The notes under the pieces were generated by a model that was not told the DNA's origin, did no database searches, and worked only from the letters and a program-made list of their open reading frames with translations. A stretch of 38,263 bases of DNA. Origin: Nitrospira sp. Lineage in GTDB: Bacteria > Nitrospirota > Nitrospiria > Nitrospirales > Nitrospiraceae. How positions within the stretch are numbered: position 1 is the first letter of the stretch; each line of letters begins with the position of its first letter. The position numbers were made by a program, and so were the translations under genes. Positions 10,170 to 17,988 of the stretch are shown one piece after another. The stretch spans positions 1 through 38,263 of the forward strand of contig JANYBU010000359.1 in assembly GCA_025360665.1 (NCBI GenBank). The letters run 5' to 3'.

Positions 10170-11513
10170 ATGGATTCGCCTCGCTCGGAACTGCCGCGCC
10201 GCATCGGAATTTTTACCGCCGGCTGTCTGTTGGTCAGTAATGTCGTCGGGAGCGGCATCTTCACGACGACCGGATTTATGGCTCGCGATCTCGGCAATCC
10301 AGGACTGATCTTGGCGATCTGGTTCTTCGGTGCCTTGCTGGCCCTCTCGGGAGCGCTGTCGTACAGCGAGTTAGGAACGGCTCTGCCGGTCGCGGGAGGA
10401 GAATACGCCTACCTGCGCCGCGCCTACGGTCCACTTGTCGGATTCCTCAGCGGATGGACATCGTTCACGATCGGCTTCAGCGCCGCCATCGCGGCAGGGG
10501 CCATGAGCTTTGCCGCATACCTGCTTCAGATTGTTCCTTTCCACAGTGAAAACGGCCCCCTCTCAACGGGGATTGCGTTGACGCTGATCTGGGTCGTCAC
10601 CGGGTTTCATCTCGCCGGCGTCGGCTCCGGTGGATTCCTGCAACGGCTGCTGACCATGCTGAACATCGGAGCGATTCTGATCCTCGTCGTCGGAGTGCTG
10701 ATGCTCGGGGAGGGAAACTGGAGCTACTTCAGTCTCTCCGCACCGGACATCACCCCCGGCTTTGGAACGACGATGGTCTCGCTGATTTTCGTCACCTACG
10801 CCTACTCAGGCTGGAATGCGGCGGCCTATGTGGCGGGAGAAATCGTCGATCCCGGACGCACCATCCCGCGGGCCATGATCGGCGGCACTCTCTTCGTGGG
10901 GTTGCTGTATCTTGTCGTGAACGGGATCTATCTCTATGCGTTACCCGTCACTGAGCTAGGGCAACCACCGATCCTCCCCGTGGCGAACAAAGTGGCCGCG
11001 GCCATGCTAGGACCCACAGGCACCATCTTGGTAACGGTCCTTCTCTGCCTCTCAATCGCCGGAGCCGTGAGCGCGATGGTGTGGACCGGACCCCGCGTGT
11101 ATTATGCCATGGCGCAAGACGGCTTGATTCCCTCCCTCTTCGCGAAAACCCCTGGCACGCAACAGGCGCCGATCAACGCCATCCTTCTGCAAAGCCTGTG
11201 GGCCTCAGCCCTGATTGTGTCGGGGAGCTTCGAACGGCTGGTGATCTACAGCGGCACCGTGCTCATGATCTTCAACGCCCTTGCAGTGGGAGCATTACTG
11301 ATCCTGCGTCGGCAAGAGCCGACTCTTCCCCGTCCCTATCGCACCCCTCTCTACCCGTTTGTCCCGGCATTCTATCTTCTTGTGTCGACCGTGATCGTTG
11401 GGGCAGCACTCTATGAGCGTCCGGTAGAAGGGGGTCTGGGCATCGCAACCGTCTTAGCCGGAACGCCGCTGTACTTGCTATGGCGCAGGCTGAGTAGCGG
11501 TAGCCACTCTTGA
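10170..11513 (+). CDS. APC family amino acid permease
   Basis: VVGSGIFTTTGFMARDLGNPGLILAIWFFGALLALSGALSYSELGTALPVAGGEYAYLRRAYGPLVGFLSGW; about 12 TM helices. Confidence 0.92.
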   Translation: MDSPRSELPRRIGIFTAGCLLVSNVVGSGIFTTTGFMARDLGNPGLILAIWFFGALLALSGALSYSELGTALPVAGGEYAYLRRAYGPLVGFLSGWTSFTIGFSAAIAAGAMSFAAYLLQIVPFHSENGPLSTGIALTLIWVVTGFHLAGVGSGGFLQRLLTMLNIGAILILVVGVLMLGEGNWSYFSLSAPDITPGFGTTMVSLIFVTYAYSGWNAAAYVAGEIVDPGRTIPRAMIGGTLFVGLLYLVVNGIYLYALPVTELGQPPILPVANKVAAAMLGPTGTILVTVLLCLSIAGAVSAMVWTGPRVYYAMAQDGLIPSLFAKTPGTQQAPINAILLQSLWASALIVSGSFERLVIYSGTVLMIFNALAVGALLILRRQEPTLPRPYRTPLYPFVPAFYLLVSTVIVGAALYERPVEGGLGIATVLAGTPLYLLWRRLSSGSHS

Positions 11514-11574
11514 AGCGAGGCCGAGATCGAGGCGACGGTTAAGCAAAGGTTCGGTCAGATTAAAGAGGTCAATC

Positions 11575-11673
11575 CCTTTGTTTGCCCCGACCGATGTGAG
11601 GTGTGAGTTTTGCGGCCAGCGTTATCCCTTCAGCCTGGGAGAGCTGACGCGCCTGATGGAGGAGGGCCGCTGA
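11575..11673 (+). pseudogene. C-terminal relic of Hsp33 (HslO)
   Basis: Frame reads ...VRCEFCGQRYPFSLGELTRLMEEGR*, matching the Hsp33 C-terminal CxxC zinc motif; the rest of the gene is absent. Confidence 0.55.
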
Positions 11674-11805
11674 CAAGCCGGCCAAGCTTGGCCAACCGGT
11701 AGCCAAACGGGAAAATCATCGCCATAGAAAAGACTCCCGGTACATTGTCTATTTCTACTCGATGCGCGCCAAATCCTCCATCCCCCTCCCAGGCTTAGCG
11801 TCGGT

Positions 11806-12108
11806 TCATCCCTTTCTCTTCGGATCAATGTGCTTCGTCCATTCATCCATCGTCGTGACCGGATGAATGCCCCCGGTTTGGGTCGGGGCCAACGGCTCGA
11901 AAAACTCCAGCATGGATTGATAGTCTTTAGCCTGGACAGTGATGTAGTAGGTATGTTCCGTGACTGCCACATAGCCGCTCAGGATCTTGATTCCTTTCTT
12001 TGCGGCGAGATCGCGTTTTGCCCAGAATTCATTGAGCATAGTGGCTCCTTCTTTACTTCTTCCAGGGCAATTCTCAGGTGTGTGAGTCCAATGGGCTACA
12101 AATAGCAT
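11806..12108 (-). CDS. DUF3303-like small protein
   Basis: MLFVAHWTHTPENCPGRSKEG...GIKILSGYVAVTEHTYYITVQAKDYQSMLEFFEPLAPTQTGGIHPVTTMDEWTK. Confidence 0.7.
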   Translation of the reverse strand: MLFVAHWTHTPENCPGRSKEGATMLNEFWAKRDLAAKKGIKILSGYVAVTEHTYYITVQAKDYQSMLEFFEPLAPTQTGGIHPVTTMDEWTKHIDPKRKG

Positions 12109-12709
12109 CCCGTCGCCGTCCATCATGAGTTACCTCCATCTGTTCGGAATTAACTATCTTCCCTTCCCTCGACAGCAAGCGCTGTGCCTTTCCGACATCA
12201 CAACTGATCAGGGAAGATATGTTGAGAAATGACCGTGATTGAAGGGAAGGAGAACAAACATGTGTCAGAGGCGCATCATCGAGAGAGGAATGCTGCAACA
12301 GTGGCAGACTTATTAAGGGGGCAAATGGCTACAAAATGAAGGTTGGGTCTGACGGCCAGGCGATTCCGGGCGACTTCTGGTTGCGCCCCAGGACTACGTT
12401 GAAGAAGCCAGGCTGACAAACTGCCGGCCAAGGCCTGAGCGAGCCCTCGCCTCGGTGCCTCCCGGAGCGACCCTTTCTGACTCATCCGGATGGAACCTTC
12501 GGAAATTCCTTCGCGGACTCAGTCAGTTTCCGCTTTCCATTCCGGCTGAGTCTCGATGGGCCCCCGCTCCTCCGGCAAAGTCGGCAGAAGCCGCTCACAC
12601 CCTGATTTCTTCAGCAACCTTTCGCGGTGCAATGCTAGTAGCAAAGAGGAAATCCTCTCACCTACCACTAGGAGAACTAAGCCCATCACTTCAGGGAGAT
12701 TTACGACAC

Positions 12710-12771
12710 ATCTAACGACCCGCTTCAGGGGTGCGCCGCTTGCGGCGCGCCCCTGCAAGCGAATGTTGGAC
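12710..12771 (-). other. attC-like recombination site 1
   Basis: ATCTAAC ... GTTGGAC boxes around the imperfect palindrome cgcttcaggggtgcgccgcttgcggcgcgcccctgcaagcg; one extra base in the right arm is consistent with minus-strand orientation. Confidence 0.8.
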
Positions 12772-12778
12772 GGCGATT

Positions 12779-13273
12779 TCATTTCGGTAGTGCATCGCGC
12801 CACTGTGTCAGGAACGGGATGAGATTCGCGAACCGAGCTGGATGTGGGGTAAGGATCTCGTACAGCATGTTAGTAACTGGATATGAGCTGTTGGTGTCGA
12901 CGCCGAGACTAGAGATCACTTCGAGCGTTTGCGCTGCTTGAGTCGTTGGTACATCGAGAGACCACTCAGGACTGTGTTTCCAGTGATTGGCAGCAGCATT
13001 TATAAGTTGGGCCATGGATCGGCCCGTCCTATGCTTTGGACCAAGTGCTAGAGCTTCGCGCTTCTTGTTCTTCAGCTGGCTCCGACTCGCTACTGCCGTA
13101 ACATACATTTGGCACGCGACGAAGCCAAACCCGGAGATGTACTCCATCTCATCAAAGATTCCAAACGCATCTGGATCTGGGCTTGCGTGAGCCTTTCCAT
13201 TCAGGCGGTCGAGACTCGCATCGACCAAAGCCGCCGCAGCACTGAGAAAATCCAGATCGAAATCTAAGATCAT
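12779..13273 (-). CDS. hypothetical protein (cassette gene)
   Basis: MILDFDLDFLSAAAALVDASLDRLNG...; lies between attC-like sites 1 and 2; no family recognised. Confidence 0.65.
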   Translation of the reverse strand: MILDFDLDFLSAAAALVDASLDRLNGKAHASPDPDAFGIFDEMEYISGFGFVACQMYVTAVASRSQLKNKKREALALGPKHRTGRSMAQLINAAANHWKHSPEWSLDVPTTQAAQTLEVISSLGVDTNSSYPVTNMLYEILTPHPARFANLIPFLTQWRDALPK

Positions 13274-13303
13274 GATCTGCTTCCGCCCCGTTCCCGTCAC
13301 CAG

Positions 13304-13361
13304 CTAACGCTCCGGCTGACCCACGGGCGGACACCCCAGCGGGTCCAGCCGGATGTTAGCC
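13304..13361 (-). other. attC-like recombination site 2
   Basis: AGCTAAC ... GTTAGCC; stem ccggctgaccc / gggtccagccgg with one extra base in the right arm. Confidence 0.72.
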
Positions 13362-13392
13362 GGTCTGCACTGGATAGGGTTCATCCTCACAC

Positions 13393-14193
13393 CTACGTCC
13401 CATGAACCCGGCTATCAATGTAGTGAAGGAGTGTCCGAACCGAATTGATGACAAGCATGGCCTCGGGTTCAGCCAACAGGGATTCGTTCGGATGTGCCAA
13501 GCTCGACCGGTTACGGAGCGGGTTAAGGGCATCAACGATCATTGCCACGGCGCGGGTAACCCGGAGCAACTCCTCTTGCCTGCCTGCTTCACCACCAAAA
13601 GCAGGATGACGTTCACGGATCGCCTTGAACAACTGTGTGATTCCCGGGTCGTCACCGAGCACCTCAATACTTGCCTTCTTGCAGACCGCGAGCAGAAAGC
13701 CGTGAAACGCCGTGTGAACACGGTCCACGCCACTGGTCGCGCCACGTGACGCGATGAGTTGCTCAGCATCCTTCAGCGCCTGTTCGACAGCATCCGACGT
13801 TATCTGGGGAGAAGCTGATGATACCGGAGCCGGGCCCTCCTTCTTGTCGAGAGCAACGGCAATGAACCGAACGTATGGGCCGATCTCTGAAAGGGTCTCC
13901 GCAAGGGTTCGGAACGATGCCTTAGAAGCGGGGTCTCGCTCGCGCTCGGCTAAATCGACGTACTGCGCCATCGGAGCTGAAAGATAGAGCACGCTGAATT
14001 CATCACCGAAAGAGTTAGTGCCTTCGTGGAGTGCAAACGGATATTCCTCCAAGAGGCGTGCGGCGTGTTCCGCGCGCCGCGCGCGCAGCAGTCGCACTGC
14101 AGTGTTCCGCAGTTGAGTCCATTCTTCGCGGTCGAGCGCTTCGCCTAGGAGCTGAATCTCGCCCGACCCGCTAGCTCTGTAGAGGCTAATCAA
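13393..14193 (-). CDS. abortive-infection-like (Abi-C domain) protein, cassette gene
   Basis: C-terminus FHGFLLAVCKKASIEVLGDDPGITQLFKAIRERHP...ILDALNPLRNRSSLAHPN-like segment characteristic of Abi_C (PF14355). Confidence 0.65.
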   Translation of the reverse strand: MISLYRASGSGEIQLLGEALDREEWTQLRNTAVRLLRARRAEHAARLLEEYPFALHEGTNSFGDEFSVLYLSAPMAQYVDLAERERDPASKASFRTLAETLSEIGPYVRFIAVALDKKEGPAPVSSASPQITSDAVEQALKDAEQLIASRGATSGVDRVHTAFHGFLLAVCKKASIEVLGDDPGITQLFKAIRERHPAFGGEAGRQEELLRVTRAVAMIVDALNPLRNRSSLAHPNESLLAEPEAMLVINSVRTLLHYIDSRVHGT

Positions 14194-14214
14194 TGTCGCG
14201 CTCTAAGCATATCC

Positions 14215-14295
14215 AGCTAACGTTCGCAATAACTGGCACCCAAACAGCAAGCGCAGCGCCGCTGTTTGGGCGTCCGGTTCATTACGGTGTTAGAC
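14215..14295 (-). other. attC-like recombination site 3
   Basis: AGCTAAC ... GTTAGAC with central stem ccaaacagc / gctgtttgg. Confidence 0.72.
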
Positions 14296-14310
14296 GACGG
14301 GTACAACACG

Positions 14311-15192
14311 TCACTCGTGATCGGCGGAGTTGATTATCCCGCGTTCCCCTCTCTTGGCCCAGTCATTCCAGTAGTCCATGCGGCGGACGAGAAAGTCTTT
14401 CCGGGCTTGGGACATGTAGGGGTTTGTCTCAATTGCAGTGTCTAGACCGCGCAGGAGTGCGCGGTCCTCGGCAAGACCTGGAATCCATTTGAGAGTAGGG
14501 GGGACGGAAACAGCCGTAAAAATACCTTTCACATTGGGCCTCATGCACACAAGCTGATGTGCATTTGGATTGGGTCGAAGGCGGTCGTATGTCATAGTCA
14601 CGATGTCGTCTGCGTGCAGATAGGTGCGTTTCTCCGTAAGATTCGGGCTGGCGTTTGCTTCCTCGCGACGGCCATAGATCAGAAGGTAGGACGGCCGGAA
14701 CCGGCGTCGGCACCATGCTTCTCGATCCAGTCCATAGAGGGCTTTGAACGCTTCAACATTGCGCGAGACGCCAAACCACGCTTTCCATTCAGCTATCTGA
14801 TTGAGAGCATGGGTTAGCTGTGCGGTTTGATTTCCGGAGTCAGTAAACCAACGTTTACCTGGAGCCTCAATCTCGATGAGCACAGGCTCCTCTGTTTCGC
14901 TGTTCAAAGACAGCCACATAAAATCGGGGAAGCGACGGTCGTATGAGGGAAGCGGGGGTTGCGATATGAGCCCACAAAGCCATGGATAATGTCCGCTCTC
15001 GTTCCCCAGAAGGTTGAAGGCGCCGGGCATCATGGAGGGGTGCCGTTCAAGGAAGGCTTGCATTGCCTTCTCGCCCGGTGGCTCGCCGTTTAAAAATGCG
15101 TCCCACTCCGCCACAATGAGACGCTCGTAGGCCTCCCATTTCATCGCCGGCTCTGGAGGAGTTTCAATCTGATATGTTCGCTCGAACTTCAT
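14311..15192 (-). CDS. DUF4263 / Shedu (SduA)-like nuclease domain protein, cassette gene
   Basis: AMQAFLERHPSMM...RRFPDFMWLSLNSETEEPVLIEIEAPGKRWFTDSGNQTAQLTHALNQIAEWKAWF: PD-(D/E)xK-like core with conserved Q...EWK. Confidence 0.72.
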   Translation of the reverse strand: MKFERTYQIETPPEPAMKWEAYERLIVAEWDAFLNGEPPGEKAMQAFLERHPSMMPGAFNLLGNESGHYPWLCGLISQPPLPSYDRRFPDFMWLSLNSETEEPVLIEIEAPGKRWFTDSGNQTAQLTHALNQIAEWKAWFGVSRNVEAFKALYGLDREAWCRRRFRPSYLLIYGRREEANASPNLTEKRTYLHADDIVTMTYDRLRPNPNAHQLVCMRPNVKGIFTAVSVPPTLKWIPGLAEDRALLRGLDTAIETNPYMSQARKDFLVRRMDYWNDWAKRGERGIINSADHE

Positions 15193-15283
15193 CCCACTTC
15201 TCAGCAGCCACGTTCTGTCGTCTAACTAGTAAATCTGCCGCGACCTACCTGTCCAGCATAGCAAGGCAGCCTCAACAATCGAG

Positions 15284-15446
15284 TGCGGGCAAGTCTACTT
15301 CAAAGCCCAATGGTTATCCACCACTCTGGCTGGTGTCTGCCGCCGGGATAGGCCGCGAATCTGCGGCCTATCCAGCTATCAGCCCGCAGCCTATCTCTGC
15401 CGACCCGCTTTCATCAAAAGAGACGATCGTCCGGGCTGTCGCCTCG
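15284..15446. repeat. about 160-bp direct repeat, copy 1
   Basis: tgcgggcaagtctacttcaaagcccaatggttatccaccactctggctggtg... closely matches 16376-16537. Confidence 0.9.
15346..15373. terminator. perfect hairpin inside direct repeat copy 1
   Basis: ggataggccgc-gaatct-gcggcctatcc, 11-bp stem; no clear U tract, so function uncertain. Confidence 0.35.
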
Positions 15447-15551
15447 GTCTGCTACGGTTCGGGACCTGTGCCACAGAAAAGGCTCTCGGCACATTTTCTG
15501 TATCAGTCTTGGATTGCGTCAGGATGGGCGGGCATGAAGAAACTTGGGGCA

Positions 15552-15610
15552 GGCTAACGGCTGCGCTTAGCCGCCAAGTTTACTGCGTCGGCTGGAGCGC
15601 CTTGTTACTG
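15552..15610 (-). other. attC-like recombination site 4 (weaker)
   Basis: GGCTAAC ... GTTACTG with imperfect stem ggctgcgcttagccg / cggctggagcgcc. Confidence 0.5.
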
Positions 15611-15920
15611 ATGTTCCTGACCGCTCAGTACGCGACTCAAGCCATTTCTTGAATGAGACTTGACTCTCGCCAGAAGGCTTCCCGGCCAATAGACCTTCAA
15701 CACTGATATCTTCGTCAAGTTCCTCCCAATGAACCCCGTGGCCCTTACCAATTAATCTCCACGTATTTCGTTCGTCCAGAGTTGCATGGAGTAGTCTGGG
15801 AAACCAAGCGAGGGGAACCGAGATGGTCCGGCCATCATACAGCTCCACAACTAAGGTGTCGCTAGTTACTGTTACAGATTCGGCACGTGGAACCTCAAGG
15901 TCAACTCCTGAAGTATTCAT
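15567..15920 (-). CDS. DUF2442 protein
   Basis: VEVPRAESVTVTSDTLVVELYDGRTISVPLAWFPRLLHATLDERNTWRLIGKGHGVHWEELDEDISVEGLLAGKPS. Confidence 0.88.
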   Translation of the reverse strand: MNTSGVDLEVPRAESVTVTSDTLVVELYDGRTISVPLAWFPRLLHATLDERNTWRLIGKGHGVHWEELDEDISVEGLLAGKPSGESQVSFKKWLESRTERSGTSVTRRSSRRSKLGG

Positions 15921-16137
15921 TCCAAGCCTCCATGAGCTGCATGTGATGATCCCTGATGATTTTGTGGTTTCGACTGAGTTCTGCTCGATTAAAGCCACCG
16001 CTTCTTTGCAACCTGATAGGGTCGAGCCAGAACTTGGCGATCTTGTCCTCACGCTCGACGTGAATGTGTTGCGGTTCATCGCGATCGCCGGCGTAGAAGA
16101 ACAATCGATACGCGCCCACCTTGAGTACTGTTGTCAT
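15901..16137 (-). CDS. DUF4160 protein
   Basis: YRLFFYAGDRDEPQHIHVEREDKIAKFWLDPIRLQRSGGFNRAELSRNHKIIRDHHMQLMEAWNEYF; overlaps DUF2442 by 20 nt. Confidence 0.9.
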   Translation of the reverse strand: MTTVLKVGAYRLFFYAGDRDEPQHIHVEREDKIAKFWLDPIRLQRSGGFNRAELSRNHKIIRDHHMQLMEAWNEYFRS

Positions 16138-16154
16138 TTACTCTTTGTCTCTAA

Positions 16155-16342
16155 CCCGCATTATTCATGAACGCTTCTGCTGCAATCGCCGATCCGCTGC
16201 TCCGACGAGCCTTCGGTCGGCGGGCTCGCCCCTCGGACCCTCAACGTACTGCACGAGTACGCCTCAGATCCTCTGGGCTCCGCGCGCCGCTCTCGCGACG
16301 CGGCTCAGCGATTTCGCGACGAACCGTCATGAATAATGTGGG
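16155..16342. repeat. MITE-like repeat family 1, copy B
   Basis: Ends cccgcattattcatga / tcatgaataatgtggg; body shares cttctgctgcaatcgccgat and gatttcgcgacgaaccg with copy C. Confidence 0.82.
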
Positions 16343-16375
16343 CTAACTGCTCTCTCGCCTAACTACTAAATCTGT

Positions 16376-16537
16376 TGCGGGCAAGTCTACTTCAAAGCCC
16401 AATGGTTATCCACCAGTCTGGCCGGTGCCAGCCGACGGGTTATACTGCGAAGCCTGTAGCCTATCCAGCTATCAGCCCGCAGCCTACCTCTGCCAACCCA
16501 CTTTTATCAGAGACGATCGGCTGGGCTATTGCGTCAA
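16376..16537. repeat. about 160-bp direct repeat, copy 2
   Basis: tgcgggcaagtctacttcaaagcccaatggttatccaccagtctggccggtg...; preceded by cctaactactaaatctg as copy 1 is by tctaactagtaaatctg. Confidence 0.9.
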
Positions 16538-16597
16538 ACCTTCAATACCGCTGGCGGACGCTTTCAACAGCTTGCCCGCCTGCCTTCGACCGAAAAC

Positions 16598-16780
16598 CTA
16601 TTCCGGCTTAATCGACAAGAACAACGTGGCTTTCCCTCTCATGATCAGCATGAGCACCCCTTGCTTGGGTGAGAGACCGCGAACCAGTCGTTCAAAATCC
16701 TCCACGGACCGAACCGGCTTGCGGTTGATTTCTCGAATCACATCCCCCTCCCGCAGCCCGGCGCGACGGAAAGGAGAATG
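16598..16780 (-). pseudogene. C-terminal PDZ relic of a DegP/HtrA-type protease
   Basis: Minus frame SHSPFRRAGLREGDVIREINRKPVRSVEDFERLVRGLSPKQGVLMLIMRGKATLFLSIKPE*; in-frame stop just upstream. Confidence 0.75.
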
Positions 16781-16801
16781 GCTCTACGCTGGTTATCCGT
16801 A

Positions 16802-17908
16802 TCAGACGATCCCTTGGGCGCTTGTTAACACACTGGCGATTGGCGAAGAACCGGCGAGAGCCGTTTGCGCGTTCAACACGCTAATCCGTGCGGCGACCTT
16901 GGACGCCATGGCCCGGAACGCAGCAGCCAGGGGCGAGGCTGGTTCGTTGATCACGATCGGTTCACCCCAATCACCCCCAATTCTCAGTCGTGTATCCAGC
17001 GGGATGTTGCCCAGGAAGGGTATTCCAAGATTGACGGCGGCTTGCTTGCCACCACCGTGCGCAAAGATGTCGGTTCGAGTGCCGCAACGGGGGCAGATGA
17101 AATAACTCATGTTCTCGACGATCCCCAAGATCGGTACCCCGGCATCCTTGAACATACTGAGGGCTTTCACGACCACATGGACGGAGGCCCGTTGAGGAGT
17201 TGTGACGAGGACCACTCCGGCGAGGGGAACCAACTGGGTCAGACTCAACGATGCGTCGCCGGTTCCCGGGGGGAGATCGACCACGAGATAATCCAACAGC
17301 CCCCACGTCACGTCGCGGAAGAGTTGCCGCAGGGTAGTATGGACCATAGGGCCACGCCAGAGAACGGGGGCGTCTTCGGGAATCAAGCTGCCCAGAGAGA
17401 TGAAACGGACACCATGGCGCTCCAGTGGCGTGAGCCGATTCTCAGCTGCCTTCGGTGCACTGCGGTCGCCCATCATGATGGGCACATCCGGGCCATACAG
17501 ATCCGCGTCCAACAGGCCCACCTTTGCGCCGGCCATTCCCAATGCGACGGCCAGATTGACGGCAACGGTGGTTTTACCCACTCCGCCCTTCACGCTGCCG
17601 ACCGCGACAATGTTTTTCACATCAGGCAAGAGATTCTGTTGGCCTGGGAACGTTGCCGCGGTCACCGTCGCCGTGAAACGCACCTCGACCTGATTGACTC
17701 CGGGTAGGTTCAGGAGCGCCTGCCGGCATTGTTGTTCAATATCGGTTTGCAGGGGGCAGGCGGGAGTCGTCAGGTTCACGGTGACTCGCACGGTGTCTTC
17801 GCGAATCTCGACACCGGTAACCATGTTTAGGGACACGAGATCGCGGCCCAGCTCAGGGTCTTGGACAGCCCGGAGTGCCGCAAGCACGTCTTCAACTGTG
17901 ATCATCAT
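16802..17908 (-). CDS. mrp: Mrp/NBP35-type iron-sulfur carrier P-loop ATPase
   Basis: VGSVKGGVGKTTVAVNLAVAL...GLLDADLYGPDVPIMMG...LVVDLPPGTGDASLSLTQ...IVENMSYFICPRCG; N-terminal DUF59. Confidence 0.96.
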   Translation of the reverse strand: MMITVEDVLAALRAVQDPELGRDLVSLNMVTGVEIREDTVRVTVNLTTPACPLQTDIEQQCRQALLNLPGVNQVEVRFTATVTAATFPGQQNLLPDVKNIVAVGSVKGGVGKTTVAVNLAVALGMAGAKVGLLDADLYGPDVPIMMGDRSAPKAAENRLTPLERHGVRFISLGSLIPEDAPVLWRGPMVHTTLRQLFRDVTWGLLDYLVVDLPPGTGDASLSLTQLVPLAGVVLVTTPQRASVHVVVKALSMFKDAGVPILGIVENMSYFICPRCGTRTDIFAHGGGKQAAVNLGIPFLGNIPLDTRLRIGGDWGEPIVINEPASPLAAAFRAMASKVAARISVLNAQTALAGSSPIASVLTSAQGIV

Positions 17909-17988
17909 CGTGACCTGTTGATCTTGATCCAATGACCACACACCACTCCAGAACATTTCCGGCTGGTCTCCAACGCATGTACCTTCTC

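Follow-up and report, generated by a model that had tools for sequence, protein, structure and literature searches.

The minus-strand gene at positions 14311–15192 of the window, the whole 38,263-nucleotide stretch of Nitrospira sp. DNA that was analysed, probably encodes a single-gene Shedu (SduA) defence nuclease that is carried as an integron cassette and cuts phage DNA. The open reading frame comprises 293 amino acids, starts with ATG and has exact coordinates, and the motifs quoted for its core in the initial annotation (RRFPDF, PVLIEIEAPGKRWF and TAQLTHALNQIAEWKAWF) are all present. Two relatives, one from an Acidobacteriaceae MAG (L009) and the other from a Latescibacterota MAG (L010), are 67–71% identical to it. 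Comparison of the gene with these two relatives yields a pS of 0.78–0.83, at which synonymous sites are saturated, and a pN of 0.17–0.21. Synonymous saturation combined with low pN therefore places the frame under protein-level constraint, and the open reading frame is a real gene.

Sequence profiles and the predicted structure identify the protein as a member of the Shedu (SduA) family. Pfam model SduA_C (PF14082) matches residues 41–205 with 61.7 bits (cut-off 27), and the PADLOC SduA model PDLC00398 aligns residues 11–293 to model positions 10–289 of 289 with 303 bits, so that the Shedu/DUF4263 assignment proposed initially is borne out, SduA being the only family named by the sequence profiles. 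Full-length homologues with 32–40% identity were detected by tblastn on plasmids of Agrobacterium, Sinorhizobium, Priestia and Arthrobacter, where they are already annotated at NCBI as 'Shedu anti-phage system protein SduA domain-containing protein'. On a Priestia megaterium plasmid (L013, 70–4867), gajA, gajB and the SduA relative are only a few bases apart, giving an operon-like arrangement of Gabija and Shedu. Among viral contigs and phage records no close relative was found with the single protein as query, and an alignment query of the viral contigs returned one distant relative (L079). Neither phmmer with the single protein nor a profile of close relatives matched any PDB chain; sequence matches to solved structures came only with a broad profile of 21 diverse members, which retrieved the SduA proteins of B. 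cereus (8ti8, E 1.7e-31) and E. coli (8ps4, E 8e-24).

The AlphaFold model of the 293-residue protein (pLDDT 83, pTM 0.85) places the nuclease core at about residues 19–205. Its predicted helices (19–35, 41–50 and 124–140) and strands (74–77, 91–96, 100–108, 168–172 and 197–200) follow each other in the order of the PD-(D/E)XK arrangement. In a fold search of the model against the PDB, the top eight matches were all Shedu chains (8ps5, 8ti9, 8ps4 and 8ti8) with E-values of 1e-4 to 1e-2 and probabilities of 0.99–1.00. These were the only significant matches, with noise below them, and the structure prediction that had been suggested as a check thus recovered the PD-(D/E)XK core and solved Shedu entries only.

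The predicted active site is composed of E41, D90, E107, E109 and Q132. Four of these residues, E41, D90, E107 and Q132, are invariant in the 21 diverse members, as is G174. When the profile is aligned with the solved Shedus, E107 lines up with the glutamate of the B. cereus SduA motif LIEIKTP, a position occupied by alanine in construct 8ti9, as would be the case in an active-site mutant, and E109 lines up with the lysine of the E-x-K motif. The catalytic lysine, which the characterised members possess but the family models do not require, is absent from the protein and replaced by E109. The motif IEIEAPGK had been noted initially as standing where typical family members have E-x-K; the exchange of lysine for glutamate holds, but as a clade-wide swap in the catalytic-lysine column and not as the oddity of one member. 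In a tree of 26 sequences, in which several deep rows are long-branched and the internal order is uncertain, 17 E-x-E and nine E-x-K proteins lie on opposite sides of one branch with a split support of 98/97; all 17 E-x-E proteins had been brought in by the family searches. E41, D90, E107 and Q132 are unchanged on both sides of this split, and since E-x-E is in addition fixed throughout a well-supported branch, it does not represent decay. The host genome carries one protein of each type: besides the E-x-E protein of the window, contig C140 (L001) encodes an E-x-K SduA with an N-terminal region of about 130–150 residues.

Lys113 might have been the catalytic lysine in a shifted position, but it is kept only in the query's own subfamily and not in other E-x-E members, and is therefore not a general replacement. 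BamHI is an active PD-(D/E)XK enzyme with an E-x-E motif (D94/E111/E113), and by this analogy nuclease activity of the SduA protein is plausible. Catalysis is, however, not simply transferable to an E-x-E protein, since the nuclease-site lysine of V. cholerae SduA is essential and its exchange (K557A) abolished defence (PMC12137116).

C-terminal to the core, residues ~210–280 are predicted to form a β-hairpin and three helices, mostly with pLDDT values of 83–97. This region is conserved in nine full-length homologues and covered by PDLC00398. Folded alone, it matched none of the solved PDB structures. The C-terminus was initially described as unassigned, which holds insofar as it has no solved relative, but it constitutes a conserved and confidently folded subfamily domain. 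At the opposite end, only about 20–40 residues precede the nuclease core and an N-terminal sensor is missing. Type I Shedu proteins consist of an N-terminal sensor and the nuclease; as the regulatory N-terminal domain is absent and the extra domain is C-terminal, the protein is not filed as type I. Owing to the missing N-terminal sensor, the C-terminal domain would be the best candidate for a sensing, clamping or autoinhibitory part.

The gene is situated, next to defence-like genes, in a small array of integron cassettes. Scanning for attC sites, defined by R'' (RYYYAAC) and R' (GTTRRRY) boxes whose arms are complementary, identified three sites on the minus strand, 14215–14295, 13302–13361 and 12710–12771, each directly after a minus-strand gene. 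Four candidates on the gene strand scored 11 or more, compared with none in six shuffles; the fourth, 14770–14819, falls within the coding sequence of sduA and is regarded as a chance hit. The hairpins of the three sites fold far better than shuffles, with z-scores of −3.2, −4.3 and −5.1, respectively. The stop codon is separated by 15 bp from the attC site of the SduA cassette, which is 81 bp long. The left junction of an integrated cassette is expected to be complementary to that cassette's own R'' box, and the junction GTTAGAC (15220–15226) is the exact complement, at 7/7 positions, of the R'' box GTCTAAC (14289–14295). The SduA cassette therefore spans 1005 bp on the minus strand, 14221–15225, from the TT of the junction G/TTAGAC to the G of the attC R' box. 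The junction match and the three same-strand attC sites, one of them directly 3' of the gene, confirm the label of cassette gene given to it initially.

The neighbouring cassette encodes an Abi_C protein of 266 amino acids (13393–14193, minus strand, TTG start; PF14355, 42.9 bits, cut-off 24), which also gives a weak AbiJ match in PADLOC, followed by the site at 13302–13361. The third cassette gene (12779–13300, minus strand, 173 amino acids), which has no significant family match in searches that included Pfam and PADLOC, is followed by the site at 12710–12771. A candidate degenerate attC site after the DUF2442 gene (15552–15610, minus strand) has boxes recognizable by eye only, and its folding (z −0.35) lends no support. 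An integron integrase (TIGR02249) was not found above cut-off in the host genome, which is 78% complete, and is present in two of the 32 same-genus genomes. With no linked integrase, the array is at most a CALIN-type cluster, i.e. attC sites without integrase. An Rfam search of 11400–17200 found nothing.

Comparison with the same-genus genome G400, which is syntenic and shows 92.7% DNA identity in one flank, suggests turnover of the array. Both genomes contain an overlapping pair of DUF4160 (78 amino acids) and DUF2442 genes (15567–16137, minus strand), located upstream of the SduA cassette, and the adjoining repeat. DNA similarity ends at 15222, beyond which G400 contains different genes, none with a Pfam match, and synteny returns at 11521. 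No other same-genus genome in the sample was seen with this SduA. As judged from the sequences, cassettes were probably gained or exchanged here at a boundary that stayed fixed.

The DUF4160 protein (15901–16137, minus strand) shows a weak match to the toxin DhiT (21.6 bits, cut-off 100), and the overlapping DUF4160 and DUF2442 genes are a possible toxin-antitoxin pair. Adjoining the DUF4160 gene is an imperfect, MITE-like inverted repeat (16152–16345) with 46-nt arms 102 nt apart, which is missing at the G400 site, where the flanking matches abut. Further upstream, a C-terminal remnant of about 50 codons (~16625–16770, minus strand) derives from a protease of the HtrA/DegP type, of which G400 has an intact copy (L054, 7239–8795). 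The place of the 5' part of the protease is occupied by an Mrp/ApbC-type gene (16802–17956), an arrangement that may reflect an assembly join.

The left edge of the SduA cassette coincides with the end of a repeat that occurs throughout the genus. The copy at 15220–15400 (minus strand) consists of a hairpin (15328–15391) and a conserved tail of about 105 nt, which ends with TAGTTAG at the cassette edge; a second copy with a truncated tail (16369–16535, minus strand) is positioned upstream of the DUF4160 gene. The repeat was found in 21 of 32 same-genus genomes, often in several copies per genome (among them L054, L055, L056, L059, L060, L085, L099 and L103), and unrelated genes often begin within about 50 nt of the tail end. 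In 4 of the 19 copies with a clear junction, an attC-like site follows whose R'' box is the exact complement of the junction, whereas shuffled junctions matched in 1.6% of cases on average and in 16.7% at most. Three of the four matches are convincing, namely those of the window, L099 and L103. This junction test is more informative than an attC scan downstream of all repeat copies, which gave only a weak excess over random segments. In L103 (G197:C22) and L099 (G402:C358), the order is repeat, gene and attC-like site, with the junctions GTTAGGC and GTTATGC.

Two other readings of the repeat were considered. True integron integrases occur in two same-genus genomes, in which no repeat was found near the integrase and no significant match anywhere; the interpretation as the canonical attI of a resident integron was therefore rejected. 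It was likewise rejected as an attC site, as no R'' box complementary to the repeat end was seen in the aligned copies. The repeat may be more novel than the nuclease, and its position at the junction makes it possible to test whether integron cassettes load at numerous sites in the chromosome.

For the SduA protein itself, defence by cutting phage DNA is the likely function as far as can be read from the sequence. Relatives on Priestia plasmids are located directly after gajA–gajB (Gabija), and the relative in L010 immediately follows genes for a BglII-type endonuclease and an MT-A70 methyltransferase. Given these defence neighbourhoods and the family assignment, protection against phages through DNA cleavage is the explanation that fits best. 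In an infected cell, the protein, which probably forms oligomers as the solved Shedus do, would bind phage DNA, perhaps at free ends as E. coli SduA does. A metal-dependent site formed by D90, E107 and E109, with glutamate where most Shedus have the catalytic lysine, would then cut the DNA, and the conserved C-terminal domain would take the sensing, clamping or autoinhibitory role. In E. coli SduA, the part credited with sensing DNA ends is an N-terminal clamp (PMC12904381); because such a clamp is absent here, the analogy for end sensing is weaker.

Three alternatives have to be weighed against a nuclease that defends by cutting phage DNA. Loss of catalysis in an otherwise intact fold, which would turn the E-x-E branch into DNA-binding, regulatory or antitoxin-like proteins, could explain why glutamate occupies the catalytic-lysine column in 17 proteins that a single branch separates from the rest. 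However, the invariance of E41, D90, E107 and Q132 on both branches is unexpected after such a loss, and BamHI is active with E-x-E (D94/E111/E113), rendering this reading quite improbable. By far the least probable alternative is a sequence-specific, BamHI-like restriction enzyme of another PD-(D/E)XK family. Although the D...E-x-E pattern is shared and BamHI appears in the fold list, its fold matches are not significant (E 0.7, probability 0.10) and come after the eight Shedu chains, SduA alone is named by the profiles, and no methyltransferase was present among the cassette genes examined.

The third alternative, abortive infection, accepts the nuclease but assumes that triggered SduA cleaves the host's DNA along with that of the phage, with the death of the cell as the outcome; its Abi_C neighbour might act in this way too. 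The presence of this Abi_C protein in the adjacent cassette is in line with such a role, and heterologous expression of Shedu has been described as toxic (PMC12904381). V. cholerae SduA, however, gave protection at every multiplicity tested, as would be expected if targeting is direct and the host survives (PMC12137116). As that protein has a different sensor domain, the argument is one of analogy, and abortive infection is regarded as unlikely. Cleavage of phage DNA by the cassette-borne Shedu nuclease is the preferred reading.

Both the Shedu family and Shedu integron cassettes are already known, and the gene of the window adds a member to them. The primary Shedu papers (Gu 2025, Loeff 2025) aside, no description of the E-x-E branch with its C-terminal domain was found in the literature searched, and no record of experimental testing was found for the PDLC00398-type subfamily. 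A more far-reaching proposal, in which the E-x-E proteins form a distinct Shedu subtype with BamHI-like metal chemistry, the subfamily carries its sensor at the C-terminus, and defence cassettes of the genus enter chromosomes at the dispersed repeat of ~105–170 bp, where an integrase provided in trans would find its landing site, is tentative and, taken as a whole, doubtful. Being compact, altered in a catalytic residue and reversed in the order of its domains, this Shedu branch could be used to test the need for the N-terminal sensor and the catalytic lysine in Shedu defence.

Compared with the solved SduA proteins of E. coli (8ps4, 8ps5) and B. cereus (8ti8, 8ti9), the nuclease fold, the D...E...Q residues and the family are common to all. 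In those two proteins, however, about 180–215 residues lie N-terminal of an E-x-K core and the chain stops right after it, whereas the window protein has E-x-E and alone possesses the C-terminal domain; the extra domain has thus changed ends. The likeness to BamHI is in the D...E-x-E active-site pattern, while fold and sequence matches are not significant. The plasmid-borne SduA subfamily described by PDLC00398 matches over the full length including the C-terminal domain and has the motif EIExPxK in common, but the plasmid relatives inspected (L011–L014) show no clear attC site after the gene and are not attC-bounded, unlike the gene of the window. As for the mode of carriage, Xanthomonas integrons are reported to contain Shedu cassettes (PMC12444791), and anti-phage cassettes are on record for the integrons of Vibrio and for mobile ones (Darracq 2025, Getz 2025, Kieffer 2025, all cited in PMC12444791); clusters of cassettes that lack an integrase are reported for Nitrospira inopinata (PMC9024848). 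The window resembles the Xanthomonas, Vibrio and mobile integrons in having Shedu or another defence gene as a cassette, and adds a further lineage, beyond the well-studied integrons of Vibrio and Xanthomonas, to those with Shedu as cassette cargo; it differs from them in its host lineage, in having no linked integrase, and in an array that starts at a genus-specific repeat.
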